DNA from: Lachnospiraceae bacterium
Lineage (GTDB): Bacteria > Bacillota > Clostridia > Lachnospirales > Lachnospiraceae
Assembly (NCBI GenBank): GCA_024698865.1
Contig: JAILQS010000163.1
Span: forward strand, 1 to 45,090
Reading direction: 5' to 3'
Length of the DNA stretch: 45,090 nucleotides
The first letter of the stretch is position 1, and every line of letters starts with the position of its first letter. The position numbers and the translations under genes are program-made. This document shows, one piece after another, positions 12,741 through 19,553 of the stretch. The notes beneath the pieces are model-generated. The model saw nothing but the letters and a program-made list of their open reading frames with translations. It searched no databases and was not told the origin of the DNA.

Positions 12741-13745
12741 GTGAATGTAAGTTTACTTGGAGCTGGAAGCTGGGGTACCGCACTTGCGATTGTTCTCGCG
12801 AAAAACGGACATAATGTGAAGCTGTGGTCTGCACTTGAGGCTGAAATTAACATGTTAAAAGAGCACAGAGAGCACAAGGAGCGTTTGCCCGGTGTAATAC
12901 TTCCGGATAATATTGAAATCGAAAGTGATTTGGAGACGGCGTGTACCAATCAGGAATTAATTGTATTTTCTGTTGCATCGCCATTTGTACGAAGCACTGC
13001 CAAACTTGCAAAGGAGTTTATCAAGGAAGGACAGAAAATTGTAAATGTAGCAAAAGGAATTGAGGAAGCTACGTTATTTACCTTGTCACAAGTGTTGGAG
13101 GATGAAATCCCACAGGCGGACATTGCAGTCCTTTCCGGACCAAGTCATGCGGAAGAGGTAAGCAAAGGAATACCGACCACCGTTGTAATTGGTGCCAAGT
13201 CCAAAGAAACGGCAGAATTTATTCAGGATACGTTTATGAATGAATTCTTCAGGGTATATACCAGTCCTGACATTGTCGGAATCGAGCTTGGTGCTGCGCT
13301 CAAAAACGTTATTGCACTGGCGGCAGGCGTAGTAGACGGATTGGGATATGGAGATAATACCAAGGCTGCACTTATGACACGTGGAATGCACGAAATCAAT
13401 CAGCTTGGAGTTGCTATGGGTGGTAAACCGGAGACATTCTTTGGCTTATCCGGAATTGGAGATTTGATTGTTACCTGTACAAGTCTGCACAGCCGCAATC
13501 GTAATGCCGGATATCTGATTGGACAAGGCAAAACTGCAAAAGAAGCAATGGAAGAAGTAAAACAGGTAGTGGAGGGTGTGCATTGTGCAAAAGCGGCACT
13601 TGCCCTTGCTAAGAAATATAACGTAGATATGCCGATTGTAGAACAGGTGAATGAAGTTATTTTTAATGATAAGCCTGCCAAAGAGGCATTGTCTGTATTA
13701 TTTAGCAGAGATAAGAAAAATGAGAATTCTACGTTAGCATGGTAA
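12741..13745 (+). CDS. gpsA: Glycerol-3-phosphate dehydrogenase [NAD(P)+]
   Basis: GpsA reduces dihydroxyacetone phosphate to sn-glycerol-3-phosphate for phospholipid synthesis. The 334-residue protein has a Rossmann motif GAGSWGTALA at 7-16, VLSGPSHAEEV near 132, a catalytic-type Lys in GAALKNVIALAAG and the C-terminal NRNAGYLIGQG region. The start is GTG at 12741 with AAGGAGG 7 nt upstream. A TATAAT (12718-12723) lies in the 41-nt gap before it, without a matching -35, so it may only be chance. It pairs functionally with plsY directly upstream. Confidence 0.98.
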   Translation: MNVSLLGAGSWGTALAIVLAKNGHNVKLWSALEAEINMLKEHREHKERLPGVILPDNIEIESDLETACTNQELIVFSVASPFVRSTAKLAKEFIKEGQKIVNVAKGIEEATLFTLSQVLEDEIPQADIAVLSGPSHAEEVSKGIPTTVVIGAKSKETAEFIQDTFMNEFFRVYTSPDIVGIELGAALKNVIALAAGVVDGLGYGDNTKAALMTRGMHEINQLGVAMGGKPETFFGLSGIGDLIVTCTSLHSRNRNAGYLIGQGKTAKEAMEEVKQVVEGVHCAKAALALAKKYNVDMPIVEQVNEVIFNDKPAKEALSVLFSRDKKNENSTLAW

Positions 13746-13771
13746 TTTTTTTTGAATAGGAGTTGTTTATA

Positions 13772-14947
13772 ATGACAAAAGTAGATATTATTTCAGGATT
13801 TTTGGGAGCAGGAAAAACTACACTTATTAAGAAATTAATTGAGGAAGTGTTCAAGGGACAGAAAATCGTTTTAATCGAGAATGAATTTGGTGAAATCGGT
13901 ATTGACGGTGGTTTCCTGAAAGATGCCGGAATTAACATTACAGAAATGAATTCCGGATGTATTTGCTGTTCTTTGGTCGGAGATTTTGGAGAAGCTTTAA
14001 ATGAAGTAATTGAGACCTATCATCCGGACAGAATCATCATTGAGCCATCCGGCGTTGGTAAGCTTTCTGATGTGATTACAGCAGTGCTTAATATCAAAGA
14101 TAAAGACCAGATCACCATCAGCAGTCTGGTTGCAGTTTGTGATGCGACAAAGAGTAAAATGTATATGAAAAACTTTGGTGAGTTTTACAACAACCAGATT
14201 GAGTCTGCCAAGACAATTATTTTAAGTAGAACACAGAAGATGACAGATGACAAACTGGCTAAGAGTATGGAGCTTATCCGTGAACATAATAAAGATGCTG
14301 CCGTAATTACAACACCTTGGGATGAAATCACCGGAGCGCAGATTCTTGAAGCGATGGAGCGTAACAATCATTTAGAAGAAGAAATCATGCACGAGCACCA
14401 TCATGAGCATGATCACGAGCATGATCACGATCATGATCACGAGCATGACGGTGAGTGCAGCTGTGGTCATCATCATGACCATGACCATGACCACGAACAT
14501 GACCACGAACACCACGACCATGAGCATGACCACGAGCATCATCACGACCACGATGGCGAATGTAGTTGCGGCCATGACCATGACCACGACCATGACCACG
14601 AACATCACCATCATCATGACCATGACGGTGAGTGCAGCTGTGGACATCATCACGACCATGATGCAGATGAAGTGTTTGTTAACTGGGGTGTTGAGACGAT
14701 TCGCAAATTCTCTAAGGCAGAATTGGAGGGTATCTTAGCTAAATTGGCAGTTGAAGAAGACAATCCTTACGGAATTATTCTGCGTGCAAAGGGTATTGTA
14801 CAGTCTGACGGTGAAGGATGGTTACATTTCGATCTTACACCTGGTGAATATGAAGTACGTAACGGTTCTGCAGATTACACCGGACGTATTTGTGTCATCG
14901 GTTCTGAATTGAAAGAAGATGTATTGAAAGATTTATTTCAGATTTAG
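13772..14947 (+). CDS. G3E GTPase with long His-rich metal-binding loop
   Basis: This 391-residue CobW/COG0523-type protein is probably a zinc metallochaperone. The P-loop GFLGAGKT is at 9-16. The metal-binding GCICC motif is at 62-66 (Cys63, Cys65, Cys66). EPSG follows near 95, and the C-terminal CobW domain starts near residue 300. Residues 207-297 form an extreme His/Asp/Glu loop containing three GECSCGH units, far longer than in most family members. The ATG at 13772 sits 9 nt after AGGAG; a TTG at 13763 touches that site and is rejected. COG0523 proteins are usually tied to zinc scarcity, but I see no clear Zur operator upstream. Confidence 0.92.
   Translation: MTKVDIISGFLGAGKTTLIKKLIEEVFKGQKIVLIENEFGEIGIDGGFLKDAGINITEMNSGCICCSLVGDFGEALNEVIETYHPDRIIIEPSGVGKLSDVITAVLNIKDKDQITISSLVAVCDATKSKMYMKNFGEFYNNQIESAKTIILSRTQKMTDDKLAKSMELIREHNKDAAVITTPWDEITGAQILEAMERNNHLEEEIMHEHHHEHDHEHDHDHDHEHDGECSCGHHHDHDHDHEHDHEHHDHEHDHEHHHDHDGECSCGHDHDHDHDHEHHHHHDHDGECSCGHHHDHDADEVFVNWGVETIRKFSKAELEGILAKLAVEEDNPYGIILRAKGIVQSDGEGWLHFDLTPGEYEVRNGSADYTGRICVIGSELKEDVLKDLFQI
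14390..14662 (+). repeat. Intragenic low-complexity His-codon repeat
   Basis: About 270 bp of CAT/CAC, GAT/GAC and GAG/GAA codons are built from short units such as GACCATGACC and GAGCATGATC. Three longer units, GGTGAGTGCAGCTGTGG and variants, encode the GECSCGH boxes. The synonymous codons vary between copies, so selection seems to act on the protein. Length variation between strains is likely from the repeat structure. Confidence 0.9.
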
Positions 14948-14968
14948 TAGTCAGGAAAAGAGGTACGT

Positions 14969-15922
14969 ATGATTCGTAAAAGAGAGATACCGGTATATTT
15001 GTTTACCGGATTTTTGGAAAGTGGAAAAACTACGTTTATCAAAGAAACCCTTTTGGAAGGGGAGTTTGAGGATGGCGCCAGAACGCTGTATATTTCCTGT
15101 GAAGAAGGTATGGAAGAACTGGAACAGCCACTCCTTGATAAAAATAAAATCACCGCAGTAGAAGTGGAAGACGAAGACGATTTGAATACGATTGCCATGA
15201 AAAAATGGGAAGAAGAACACAGACCACAGAGAATTCTGATTGAATTTAACGGAACCTGGGATCTTGCTGATTTTATGGAAAACAAGCTTCCACCAAACTG
15301 GTTTGTGGTACAGGTTATTACCACGATTGACGCATCTACCTACGAAGTATATCTGGGTAATATGAAAATGATGATGTTAAATCAGTTTAAGGAAAGTGAT
15401 CTGGTAGTATTTAATCGTTGCGAAGCGGATATTGACAGAGGAAAGTTTCGTAGAAGCGTAAAAGCCGTGAACCGTAAAGCGCAGATTATATATGAAAATG
15501 CGGATGGAACCGTGGATCAGAACTTTGAGGAGCAGATGCCGTTTGATACGACCGGTCCCGAAATCGAAATTGTTGAAGAGGATTTTGGACTCTGGTATAT
15601 TCATGCGATGGATCATCCTGAGATTTATGAAGGAAAGTATGTCACCTTCAAAGGGATGTTCTATAAACCAAAGTCATCCAAACAGGATTTGTTTGTTCCG
15701 GGACGTTTTGCTATGACATGTTGCGCGGATGATATTGCATTTATCGGATTTGTCTGCCACGGCAAAGGGATTGAACAATTCCGCCAGAAAGACTGGGTGA
15801 AGGTGCGTGCACAGGTGCGCATCGAATATTGTAAGGATTACAAAGGAAAAGGACCTGTGCTTTATGCAGAAAGTGTGGAACCGGATGAACCTGCACAGGA
15901 TGAACTTGTATATTTCACCTAA
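14969..15922 (+). CDS. G3E-type GTPase fused to a DUF1980-like C-terminal domain
   Basis: This 317-residue protein begins with a CobW-like GTPase core. The P-loop is GFLESGKT at 14-21, a likely switch region is LIEFNGTWDL near 91, and the guanine-specificity region is VFNRCEAD near 147. The CxCC metal motif is absent; SCEEG stands at the corresponding place. From about residue 205, KYVTFKGMFYK, FVPGRFAMTCCADDIAFIGFVCHG and DWVKVRAQV resemble the C-terminal region of TIGR03943/DUF1980 (YcgQ) proteins, often zinc-linked. The start is 21 nt after the His-rich GTPase, so the two are likely one unit. A metal-handling role is inferred from the neighbour and fold. Confidence 0.8.
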   Translation: MIRKREIPVYLFTGFLESGKTTFIKETLLEGEFEDGARTLYISCEEGMEELEQPLLDKNKITAVEVEDEDDLNTIAMKKWEEEHRPQRILIEFNGTWDLADFMENKLPPNWFVVQVITTIDASTYEVYLGNMKMMMLNQFKESDLVVFNRCEADIDRGKFRRSVKAVNRKAQIIYENADGTVDQNFEEQMPFDTTGPEIEIVEEDFGLWYIHAMDHPEIYEGKYVTFKGMFYKPKSSKQDLFVPGRFAMTCCADDIAFIGFVCHGKGIEQFRQKDWVKVRAQVRIEYCKDYKGKGPVLYAESVEPDEPAQDELVYFT

Positions 15923-15943
15923 TAAATCAAAGGAGAAACTATT

Positions 15944-16201
15944 TTGGAAGAGATTTATACACTGATTGAAAACAAAATAAAAGAAGCCGGTTACGCGGGC
16001 GTGGTGGATGGATTTGAAATCTATCAGGAGATTTCTGACCAGATCGAAGGAAAAGAAAACGGCTCGTATCTTTTTATGGTGAAAAAGACGGATACCTGTT
16101 TCTTTGAATACAAAATAGATGTTTTTGACGAAGAGTTTAATTTGTCGTATATTGATATACATGAGGGAGAAAAGGTACTTCGTGTTGATTTTGACGAATA
16201 G
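15944..16201 (+). CDS. Small acidic protein of unknown function
   Basis: I do not recognise this 85-residue protein. It starts at a TTG (15944) with AAAGGAG 8 nt upstream and lies 21 nt after the GTPase fusion gene, so it is probably cotranscribed with the metal-handling pair. It is acidic, has no membrane segment or signal peptide, and shows an N-terminal helix (LIENKIKEAGYAG) followed by alternating strand-like pieces (GSYLFMVKKTDTCFFEYKI). Two cysteine-free halves argue against direct thiol metal binding, apart from one Cys near residue 52. Codon use resembles its neighbours. Confidence 0.75.
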   Translation: MEEIYTLIENKIKEAGYAGVVDGFEIYQEISDQIEGKENGSYLFMVKKTDTCFFEYKIDVFDEEFNLSYIDIHEGEKVLRVDFDE

Positions 16202-16270
16202 CAATCATTTATGTGACATTGTAACCTGCTATACTCATATCATAAAGAAATAGCGATGAGGAGTATAATT

Positions 16271-18001
16271 ATGAAGAATTTAAAAATAGTTTCCTATAAA
16301 ACAGCAATTATCCCTTCTAAGATGATTGCTGTCTTTATTTGCAGCCTGTTGATTGGCGCTTTTGGATTGGCAGGACTTAACGCAAAGGCGGCACAAAATA
16401 ATATTGGATCAGACCCTAAGGAAGAGAACAGTTTCCGTTATAAAGACGGAGAACGTATTGAAGATGAGATGCTGATAGAAGAGGATGGTTTATCTATCCG
16501 CTATAAGCCAAAGAAAGCGAATGCCAACGCATGGAAACTGGTAGACGGACAGTATTTGAGCAGCAATGGGAAACCGATTCCCGGAGCAATCGCAAAAGGT
16601 GTTGACGTCAGTTACCACAACGGAACAATTGACTGGGAGAAAGTAAAAGCAGACGGAATTGATTTTGCAATTATACGTTGCGGCTATGGAATGGACCAGA
16701 CGGATCAGGACGATAAGCAATGGGTGAATAATGCAAAGAAGTGCAGCGAACTTGGAATTCCGTTCGGCGTATATCTGTATTCCTATGCGAACACTTCCGA
16801 AAAAGCATTGAGTGAAGCAGAACATGTTTTACGCCTTGTAAAAGGGTATAAACTTTCCATGCCAATCTATTATGATCTGGAAGATACGATTGTTGAAAAA
16901 GCCGGAACTGCACAGATTCTTGAAAATACGAAAATTTTTACACAAAAACTGGAGAGTGCCGGTTATACCGTTGGAATCTATGCCAATCTGTATTGGTTCA
17001 ATACTTTCCTGACGGATGCCTATTATGATAAATATGAAAAATGGGTGGCACAGTATAATACCACCTGTAACTACACAAAACCGTACTATATCTGGCAATC
17101 CACAAGTGAAGGAACGGTAAGCGGTATCGGAAGCAAAAGCGTAGACCTAAACTTTATGTTAAATACGGCACCGGTATCGGCAAAAATTACAGGTATCAGA
17201 CAGACAGAGAATGGAAATGAAGTTACATTTATTCCGGGGATCGGAGCGACCTCTTATGATTTGTATCGTATGAATTCTGCCAATGTTTCTACGTATATAG
17301 CCAGCAAAGGTATCAACGAGAAAAAAGAATTCCTTGATACTACCGTTAAAAGCCTGAGTGGATATCGCTATTATATTGTAACGAAACGTGACTTCAAATC
17401 GCAAAAAGGCAGTGTGAAGACAGATGCCATCAAACCACTTGCAAAGACCTCGATTTCAGTAGCATATAACACGTACAATTCACTGAAAATCACCTGGAAG
17501 AAAATCAGTGGCGCCAATGGATATAAACTGTATCGAAAGAGCGGTACTACGTATAAATTAATTAAAACCTTAAGTGGCGAGACAAACTGTAGTTATATTG
17601 ATACAAAACTCACCTGCGGCAAAACGTATAATTATATTGTGCGTGCATATCAGACGCTAGGTGGTGTAAAGATACTTGGTAATGCAAGTATAAAAGGGAA
17701 AGATGCAACACCAAAACCGCCAAAGCCGGAGAAACTGACACTAAAGAATTCCGGACACTATATTAAAGTAAAATGGTCTAAAGTAAAGGGCTGCCATGGT
17801 TATCTGATTTACCGAAGAACAGGGACAAAGGGAAGTTTTACACGCATTAAGACAATCAGCAAATCCACAACACTTTCCTTTACCGACAAAACTGTAAAGA
17901 AGAAGAAAACGTATTACTATAAAGTCCGAGGCTACCGTACGGTTTCCGGCAAAAAAGTATACGGAGCTTATTCAAAAGCCTACAAACTCAAAGCCAAATA
18001 A
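16271..18001 (+). CDS. Secreted GH25 lysozyme with fibronectin-III-like tail
   Basis: This 576-residue protein has a signal peptide (about 1-40, ending near LNAKAA) and a GH25 muramidase domain from about residue 105 to 300. It should hydrolyse the beta-1,4 bond of peptidoglycan. Asp112 in KGVDVSYHNG and the Asp202-x-Glu204 pair in YYDLED fit the GH25 active site. Two or three repeats follow with the WKKISGANGYKLYRKSG and WSKVKGCHGYLIYRRTG patterns of fibronectin-III-like modules, common in Lachnospiraceae surface proteins. The ATG at 16271 is 7 nt after AGGAG; an in-frame ATG at 16256 overlaps that site. It ends at the hairpin before spoIVA. Confidence 0.92.
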   Translation: MKNLKIVSYKTAIIPSKMIAVFICSLLIGAFGLAGLNAKAAQNNIGSDPKEENSFRYKDGERIEDEMLIEEDGLSIRYKPKKANANAWKLVDGQYLSSNGKPIPGAIAKGVDVSYHNGTIDWEKVKADGIDFAIIRCGYGMDQTDQDDKQWVNNAKKCSELGIPFGVYLYSYANTSEKALSEAEHVLRLVKGYKLSMPIYYDLEDTIVEKAGTAQILENTKIFTQKLESAGYTVGIYANLYWFNTFLTDAYYDKYEKWVAQYNTTCNYTKPYYIWQSTSEGTVSGIGSKSVDLNFMLNTAPVSAKITGIRQTENGNEVTFIPGIGATSYDLYRMNSANVSTYIASKGINEKKEFLDTTVKSLSGYRYYIVTKRDFKSQKGSVKTDAIKPLAKTSISVAYNTYNSLKITWKKISGANGYKLYRKSGTTYKLIKTLSGETNCSYIDTKLTCGKTYNYIVRAYQTLGGVKILGNASIKGKDATPKPPKPEKLTLKNSGHYIKVKWSKVKGCHGYLIYRRTGTKGSFTRIKTISKSTTLSFTDKTVKKKKTYYYKVRGYRTVSGKKVYGAYSKAYKLKAK

Positions 18002-18005
18002 CAGT

Positions 18006-18034
18006 GAATAATATTTAACCCCCTTTCATATATT
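18006..18034 (+). promoter_or_regulatory. Sigma-E-like sporulation promoter for spoIVA
   Basis: GAATAAT (18006-18012) and CATATATT (18027-18034) are separated by exactly 14 bp. This matches the B. subtilis sigma-E pattern of a -35 like KMATAWW and a -10 like CATACAnT. spoIVA is sigma-E controlled in B. subtilis. Transcription would begin around 18041, just at the right arm of the overlapping terminator hairpin. The match is by eye. Confidence 0.5.
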
Positions 18035-18061
18035 GAAATAGATATGGAAGGGGGATTTTTT
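18019..18061 (+). terminator. Terminator hairpin holding the spoIVA ribosome site
   Basis: CCCCCTTTCATAT (18019-18031) pairs with ATATGGAAGGGGG (18042-18054) over 13 bp with one G-T wobble. It is followed by ATTTTTT (18055-18061), a standard intrinsic terminator 17 nt after the GH25 stop. The right arm GGAAGGGGG is also the only ribosome site for the GTG start of spoIVA at 18063. Transcripts reading in from the left would therefore both terminate and hide the spoIVA start. Confidence 0.85.
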
Positions 18062-18062
18062 C

Positions 18063-19553
18063 GTGAATCAGGAGACAAAGTTTAATCTGTATAGAGACAT
18101 TCAAAACAGAACAAATGGAGAAATCTATCTGGGAGTTGTAGGACCGGTAAGAACGGGTAAATCTACCTTTATCAAGCGTTTTATGAATCTTATGGTAATT
18201 CCGAATATAGAAAATGATGCTGACAAGGAAAGAGCGATTGATGAATTGCCACAATCCGCCGGTGGAACGGTGATTATGACCACAGAACCCAAATTTATAC
18301 CTAAGGAAGCGGTTGAAATAAATGTGGGAGTACCAATCCGGGTGCGTCTCATTGACTGCGTTGGATTCGTTGTGGAGGGTGCCGGTGGGGTTATGGAGGC
18401 AGAACAGGAACGCATGGTGAAAACGCCTTGGTCAAGTGAGGAAATGCCTTTTAGCAAAGCAGCAAGCATTGGAACGAAAAAAGTCATCAAAGACCATTCT
18501 ACAATCGGAATTGTACTTACGTGTGACGGCAGCTTCGGCGAAATTCCGCGAAATTCCTACGTTGCGGCGGAAGAAGAAATTATAAAGGATATGGAGCGTA
18601 TTCAAAAGCCGTTCGTTGTAGTGCTAAATACGATGAAACCGCTATCGGATGATGCAGCGCTTTTGGCAAAATCGCTACGGGAAAAGTATCAGGTGCCGGT
18701 TATTCCTGTAAACTGTGAGCAGTTAAGAGAGGAAGATGTTTTGCACATATTGAAAGAAGCACTGTCAATTTTTCCGGTACAAAAGCTAAATTTTTACCTG
18801 CCAAACTGGGTGGAAATCCTGAGTGATTCTCATCCGATCAAAGAAAAAATAATGCATTTGATTCGGCTGCTTGTGAAAGATGTAGACAAAATGAAAGACT
18901 TAAATACAGGGCTTTTGCAACGCGTAAAAGAAGAGATGGCAGAACCGGCATTTGACGTTTCCATTGACGCGATAAAAATGGAAAGCGGGGAAGCTGACCT
19001 TAAGATCGGACTCCCGAATGATATTTACTATGAGGTGCTGAGTGAACTTAGCGGAGTTGATATAGGTGGTGAGTATCAGTTAATACAGACACTTCGCGAA
19101 CTCGTATTACATAAAAAAGAATTTGAAAAAATGGAGGATGCATATGAGCAGGTGCGTTATTCCGGATATGGTGTGATTTCGCCGGGGGCGAAAGAAATTC
19201 AAATTGAGGAACCGGAGCTGATTCATCACGGCAATAAATATGGTGTAAAAATCAAGGCGTCTGCACCGTCCATTCATATGATTAATGCAAATATCGAAAC
19301 CGAGATTGCACCGATTGTCGGCAACAGGGAACAGGCGGAAGAACTGGTACGCTACATGGAAGAAAATGCGAAAGATTTGCCGGAGGGAATCTGGAATACG
19401 AATATTTTTGGAAAAACCGTCGGTCAGATGGTAGAGGAAGGGATTCGAAGTAAAATTGTAAAACTATCCGAGGAAAGTAGAATTAAACTTCAGGAAACAC
19501 TTCGTAAAGTGGTGAACGACTCTAATGGAGGAGTTATATTTATCATTATTTAA
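18063..19553 (+). CDS. spoIVA: Stage IV sporulation protein A, ATPase
   Basis: SpoIVA is an ATP-hydrolysing protein that polymerises on the forespore surface and forms the base of the spore coat. The 496-residue length is normal. The N-terminal NTPase domain has the Walker A motif GPVRTGKST near residues 27-35, then SAGGTVIMTTEPKFIP and LIDCVGFVVEGA. The C-terminal region ends in NDSNGGVIFIII, close to the family's usual end. The start is GTG at 18063 with AAGGGGG about 8 nt upstream inside the hairpin. It is the only clear sporulation gene here and marks the host as a spore former or recent descendant. Confidence 0.98.
   Translation: MNQETKFNLYRDIQNRTNGEIYLGVVGPVRTGKSTFIKRFMNLMVIPNIENDADKERAIDELPQSAGGTVIMTTEPKFIPKEAVEINVGVPIRVRLIDCVGFVVEGAGGVMEAEQERMVKTPWSSEEMPFSKAASIGTKKVIKDHSTIGIVLTCDGSFGEIPRNSYVAAEEEIIKDMERIQKPFVVVLNTMKPLSDDAALLAKSLREKYQVPVIPVNCEQLREEDVLHILKEALSIFPVQKLNFYLPNWVEILSDSHPIKEKIMHLIRLLVKDVDKMKDLNTGLLQRVKEEMAEPAFDVSIDAIKMESGEADLKIGLPNDIYYEVLSELSGVDIGGEYQLIQTLRELVLHKKEFEKMEDAYEQVRYSGYGVISPGAKEIQIEEPELIHHGNKYGVKIKASAPSIHMINANIETEIAPIVGNREQAEELVRYMEENAKDLPEGIWNTNIFGKTVGQMVEEGIRSKIVKLSEESRIKLQETLRKVVNDSNGGVIFIII

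Follow-up and report, generated by a model that had tools for sequence, protein, structure and literature searches.

A putative sporulation promoter set within a terminator-like hairpin over the spoIVA ribosome site in Lachnospiraceae

In most Lachnospiraceae, a family of common gut bacteria, the spore-coat gene spoIVA appears to be preceded by an element in which a SigE-like promoter lies inside a hairpin, the hairpin blocking expression from read-through transcripts and being bypassed when SigE initiates within it. From sequence comparison and folding models we put the probability of this reading at roughly three in four; spoIVA is probably read properly only if its transcription is started by the sporulation sigma factor. 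The reading draws on the observed sequence, covariation of the hairpin arms, promoter geometry, dependence on the orientation of the upstream gene and a linked U-tract, together with a predicted fold. The arrangement would be a compact answer to the problem of silencing a sporulation gene situated only tens of bases downstream of another, and the element is conserved across one of the main families of gut spore-formers. The proposal predicts the start with nearly single-base precision and gives annotators a signature for further SigE genes. It also describes a regulatory trait that appears and vanishes with the orientation of a neighbouring gene.

The element was read in the window, that is, the whole stretch of 45,090 nucleotides analysed here, which comes from a draft genome of 2.5 Mb in 183 contigs. 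A GH25 gene and spoIVA are separated there by a 61-nt spacer, whose features are listed in Table 1. The stem has 13 pairs, one of them G-U, and the only spoIVA ribosome site lies within its right arm; a C stands between the T6 and the GTG. The initial annotation had described a 13-bp terminator stem whose right arm holds the sole ribosome site; direct reading and the MFE fold agree with it to the base, and the SigE-like promoter that it placed with the -10 in the left arm is likewise present. The hairpin is the MFE fold of positions 17990-18090 (-23.7 kcal/mol, z -2.81), with 4 of 200 shuffles equally good. At the motif level the ATA-type -35, the CATA-type -10 and the fixed spacing of a SigE promoter are all found. 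In C. difficile, where the SigE -35 motif is ATA, a SigE promoter has been mapped upstream of spoIVA and the gene is SigE-dependent (PMC3789822). Sequence and fold also show the features of an intrinsic terminator, a stable G+C-rich stem and a U-tract; a simple terminator scan overlooked this hairpin because the scan's loop limit is 8 nt.

Table 1. Features of the GH25-spoIVA spacer and its flanking genes, in window coordinates
Feature	Position	Strand	Basis and remarks
GH25 / fn3 cell-wall lytic protein gene	16256-18001	+	ORF; PF01183 E 2.5e-23; stop codon ends at 18001
SigE-like -35, GAATAAT	18006-18012	+	direct reading; 14 nt before the -10
Hairpin left arm, CCCCCTTTCATAT	18019-18031	+	predicted fold; swap test
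SigE-like -10, CATATATT	18027-18034	+	direct reading; overlaps the left-arm end and the loop
Loop, 10 nt	18032-18041	+	direct reading
Predicted SigE start, about 7 nt past the -10	18041	+	consensus spacing only
Hairpin right arm, ATATGGAAGGGGG	18042-18054	+	predicted fold
spoIVA Shine-Dalgarno, GAAGGGGG, the 3' part of the right arm	18047-18054	+	predicted fold; leader set
A between right arm and T tract	18055	+	direct reading
T6, terminator U-tract and part of the Shine-Dalgarno-to-start spacer	18056-18061	+	direct reading
spoIVA, GTG start at 18063	18063-19553	+	TIGR02836 E 1.6e-184; PF09547, PF20438, PF20439

We infer the following course of events. A polymerase reading through from the upstream gene would transcribe the whole hairpin and the U6, and most of the RNA would stop before the start codon; in RNA that passed the terminator, the ribosome site would be locked in the stem. 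Upon activation of SigE in the mother cell, on which expression in this organism would depend, initiation would occur between the arms, and the left arm would then go untranscribed, so that no terminator hairpin could form and the ribosome site would be free. For read-through RNA the folding model puts the cost of opening the ribosome site at about 16.5 kcal/mol, against 2.1 kcal/mol for RNA starting at 18041; among the remaining scored genes of the window the cost is at most 5.8 kcal/mol.

spoIVA is present in 161 of 250 Lachnospiraceae-family genomes. The leaders compared were those of 130 family spoIVA genes, one per genus, whose proteins are about 50-58% identical to SpoIVA of the window, and 49 from elsewhere in the class; calling of start codons and SigE sites was automatic throughout. 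Because the named loci overlap with this family set, they do not count as independent sampling. Alignments gave a common leader plan, [ACT]TA ... CCCCCTTG-CATATACTG-TAA-CAGTATA-CAAGGGGG-TATTTTT-ATG. At the thresholds for a strong hairpin, 8 and 12 kcal/mol, which are arbitrary, an opening cost of at least 8 kcal/mol was found for 84 of the 130 family spoIVA leaders versus 24 of 269 control genes from the same loci, and only 4 of the 269 controls, at least two of them spoIID, reached 12 kcal/mol. The median opening cost of the ribosome site was 14.1 kcal/mol in the family versus 3.1 in other Clostridia. The other Clostridia families, represented by the 49 leaders, have spoIVA but lack a hairpin of the Lachnospiraceae type, so the hairpin is dispensable for sporulation in general, a point that weighs against the insulator reading.

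The two arms fit each other better than shared ancestry alone would explain. When arms were swapped among genera, the duplex of an arm with its own partner had a mean energy of -19.9 kcal/mol versus -14.0 kcal/mol with the left arms of other genera (z -16.9), and none of 10,000 permutations reached the observed value. Column-wise covariation in 30 leaders agreed more weakly (score 0.173 versus 0.142 +/- 0.010, reached by 0 of 500 shuffles), and 8 of 16 stem pairs in these leaders have changes on both sides. In the alignment the lower arms change together, giving CCCCC, CCTCC and CCCCTTT types, and L010, L058, L078 and L137 keep the pairing around much longer loops (spans of 51-72 nt). RNAalifold recovered only 5 pairs from a mixed alignment because stem registers differ, and the swap test was used instead. 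Comparing sense with antisense folding energies gave no distinction between RNA and DNA, since hairpin-less leaders differed by the same 1 kcal/mol, and counts of G-U versus A-C were left unused as biased by the duplex model.

The promoter is kept along with the stem. A strict SigE-like pattern, [ACT]TA-N15..17-CATANNNT, occurs in 78 of 130 family leaders (60%) versus 2.7% of dinucleotide shuffles, and the CATA core in 81 of the 84 relatives that bear the hairpin. Judged by motif, the predicted start falls between the arms in all 64 leaders that have both features, and all bases that pair with the ribosome site lie upstream of it, so the predicted opening cost drops from 14.1 to 2.4 kcal/mol. 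The result was unchanged when the assumed start was shifted over +5 to +10. Even where the stem lies further upstream and the entire -10 is in the loop (L022, L023, L028 and L096), the start would still be between the arms, a position that is, as far as motifs place it, constant across genera. Arm complementarity in the swap test, the SigE-like motif, the predicted start between the arms and the dependence on a co-directional upstream gene described below strongly bear out the check set by the initial annotation, whether stem and promoter are both kept in relatives. The apex of the hairpin (18027-18046 in the window) is in many relatives a near-perfect palindrome, CATATACTG-TAA-CAGTATATG, which places a -10-like CATATACTG on both strands.

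Presence of the hairpin follows the orientation of the upstream gene. Hairpins of at least 8 kcal/mol were found in 0 of 13 leaders with a divergent upstream gene versus 80 of 110 with a co-directional one (Fisher 3e-7). ORF length served to call orientation, and divergent genes alone were checked one by one against Pfam; the 13 were counted as plausible, and 10 of them have clear Pfam support. Six further 'divergent' ORFs (L026, L051, L060, L073, L118 and L128), four of which carry strong hairpins, were set aside as probably spurious because they lack a Pfam match; with these six kept, 21% of 19 divergent cases reach 8 kcal/mol, and the orientation effect is weaker, not removed. At co-directional gaps below 70 nt, 97% of leaders have the hairpin, and the share falls with distance. 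That 30 of the 110 co-directional leaders stay below 8 kcal/mol speaks against the insulator reading. On a 129-protein tree with 11 independent pairs differing in orientation, the hairpin follows orientation in about 6 and opposes it in 0 (median p 0.03). One class-level locus, L220, has an apparently divergent upstream gene and yet scores 11.4 kcal/mol, so the orientation rule may not hold beyond the family.

The upstream genes themselves are varied (84 Pfam families overall), the commonest neighbour in the family being gpsA (22 of 109), with an ABC ATPase in 7 of 109; the element therefore goes with spoIVA, not with one particular neighbour. The initial annotation had described a terminator after the GH25 gene. 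The stem is there as it said, but the terminator is not specific to that gene: since the hairpin is kept beside spoIVA whatever gene lies upstream, we assign it to spoIVA. In the window, two cobW-type genes and the GH25 gene (12741-18001) separate gpsA from spoIVA; these genes look like an insertion that did not displace the spoIVA element. The T fraction of the spacer is 0.70 with the hairpin, 0.42 without it and 0.27 in other Clostridia; by sequence, a T-rich spacer found only alongside the hairpin fits the need of a terminator. The hairpin tracks the risk of read-through, and the data together support a device by which read-through RNA would be terminated or muted and which SigE initiation would bypass.

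A plainer account is that the hairpin is merely the intrinsic terminator of the upstream gene, squeezed against spoIVA, and that its masking of the ribosome site is incidental and has no effect. The co-directional upstream gene, the short gap and the U-tract are all as this account predicts, and it overlaps the insulator explanation rather than excluding it. We nevertheless consider it unlikely, since the hairpin keeps its fixed position relative to the -10 and the start codon also in 22 genomes with gaps of 110-515 nt, where a terminator would be free to lie anywhere, and since the lower stem is formed by the ribosome site itself.

Two other accounts make of the element a DNA site or a regulated leader. 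The inverted repeat could be an operator for a dimeric regulator acting on the SigE promoter; the apical palindrome is itself conserved, and spoIVA is a direct target of SpoIIID in B. subtilis and is repressed by it in C. difficile (PMC3789822). Against a fixed operator stand the co-varying lower arms, the variable loop length, an apex that, by eye, lacks the SpoIIID consensus, and a presence that follows the orientation of the upstream gene, which an operator would not need; we regard it as very improbable. Alternatively, the sporulation start could lie further upstream and the hairpin be a regulated leader, whether thermosensor, riboswitch-like or stabilising. A hairpin over a ribosome site can serve as such a device, and the fold was confirmed as the MFE structure. 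An Rfam covariance-model search of the element gave no family over threshold, only a chance CbSR9 match (19.6 bits versus a cut-off of 279), and a known riboregulator was judged unlikely. Nearly all relatives have a SigE-like -10 in or beside the left arm, the arms, at 14 kcal/mol, are too stable for an easily opened leader, and the hairpin is lost with a divergent upstream gene; of the explanations weighed here, we hold a regulated leader to be the least probable.

The insulator proposed for spoIVA has precedents. In phage T4, gene e (lysozyme), and also soc, 49 and I-TevI, have a late promoter inside a stem-loop that hides the ribosome binding site, gene e being the classic case; long transcripts fold the site away, and transcripts from the late promoter, which lies in the 5' strand of the stem-loop, lack that strand and are translated (PMC3014915). 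The likeness to gene e lies in a spoIVA site predicted to be paired in the longer RNA (16.5 kcal/mol in the window, a median of 14.1 in relatives) and in a stage-specific start placed between the arms by motif in 64 of 64 leaders. The systems differ in that the T4 genes are phage late genes and spoIVA is a bacterial sporulation gene with a SigE promoter, and in that the spoIVA hairpin would also serve, with its U-tract, as a terminator whose end lies right before the start codon. In B. subtilis, translation of spoIIG read-through RNA has been proposed to be blocked at sigG by a large hairpin, one that cannot form in PsigG transcripts (PMC5942855). This too would be a sporulation gene insulated from upstream read-through by a hairpin impossible in RNA from its own promoter; it differs in that sigG is a forespore gene under a SigF/SigG promoter, in that the case concerns a single gene, and in that the passages on sigG name no terminator role (PMC5942855). 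Among Lachnospiraceae sigG leaders, only 6 of 26 reach 8 kcal/mol, versus the 84 of 130 for spoIVA. The element shares with intrinsic terminators a G+C-rich stem followed by a T run and differs from them in that its right arm is the ribosome site, its T run is the spacer and its left arm holds a developmental promoter. A literature search with most subscription journals outside its coverage found no spoIVA with a promoter-in-hairpin arrangement. The principle is already known from T4 gene e and, as a prediction, from B. subtilis sigG; the literature searched gave no case of it at spoIVA throughout a family and combined with a terminator.

A covariance model of the spoIVA element also matched leaders of yabP, spoIID, csp-like subtilases and single cwlD genes in family genomes. 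yabP was confirmed by TIGR02892 and one of three spoIID loci (G058) by TIGR02870, below its cut-off; the remaining spoIID, csp-like and cwlD loci were named from their own sequences. In the survey at 8 kcal/mol or more, yabP scored 14 of 29 and cwlD 0 of 28, and cwlD was rejected as a group sharing the device, single matches aside, which counts against the insulator reading; spoIID start calls were too noisy for a rate. From these sequences, the arrangement is shared by at least yabP, occurs sporadically at spoIID, csp-like genes and others, and is not universal for SigE genes. Since the yabP and spoIID hairpins do not resemble the spoIVA one in sequence, the arrangement may have arisen more than once. 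Hairpins of the form CCTCCTAATATACTT...AAGTATRTTAGGAGG-TTTTTT-ATG, spoIVA-like in design, lie over the ribosome site in the yabP leaders L382, L391-L393, L396, L397, L400 and L406. Tentatively, Lachnospiraceae may possess a general insulation device for sporulation genes behind vegetative genes, with a compartment-specific promoter (SigE, perhaps SigF at a spoIIQ-like gene) inside a hairpin acting as terminator or over the ribosome site; translation would then be limited to RNA initiated by the proper sigma factor, and the device would be gained or lost as neighbours change.

The gene after spoIID in family loci such as L351, L355, L356, L360 and L373, which looks like spoIIQ, has a conserved leader hairpin of the GGTAAGAATATTACCGAGGTGAT type. 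A SigF-like -10 lies in its left arm and the ribosome site at or after its right arm, and the arms show paired changes (CGGT/ACCG, TCTGGC/GCCAGA). Another observation concerns spoIVA itself in other Clostridia families. In L471, L472-L473 and L474-L475, inserts of roughly 6, 22 and 39 kb interrupt spoIVA close to codon 400, and in each a large serine recombinase gene (547-550 aa, named from sequence) adjoins the 3' fragment. A literature search listed elements of this kind in sigK, spsM and gerE, and none of its titles or abstracts gave spoIVA as a target. The inserts look skin-like and are possibly excised during development.
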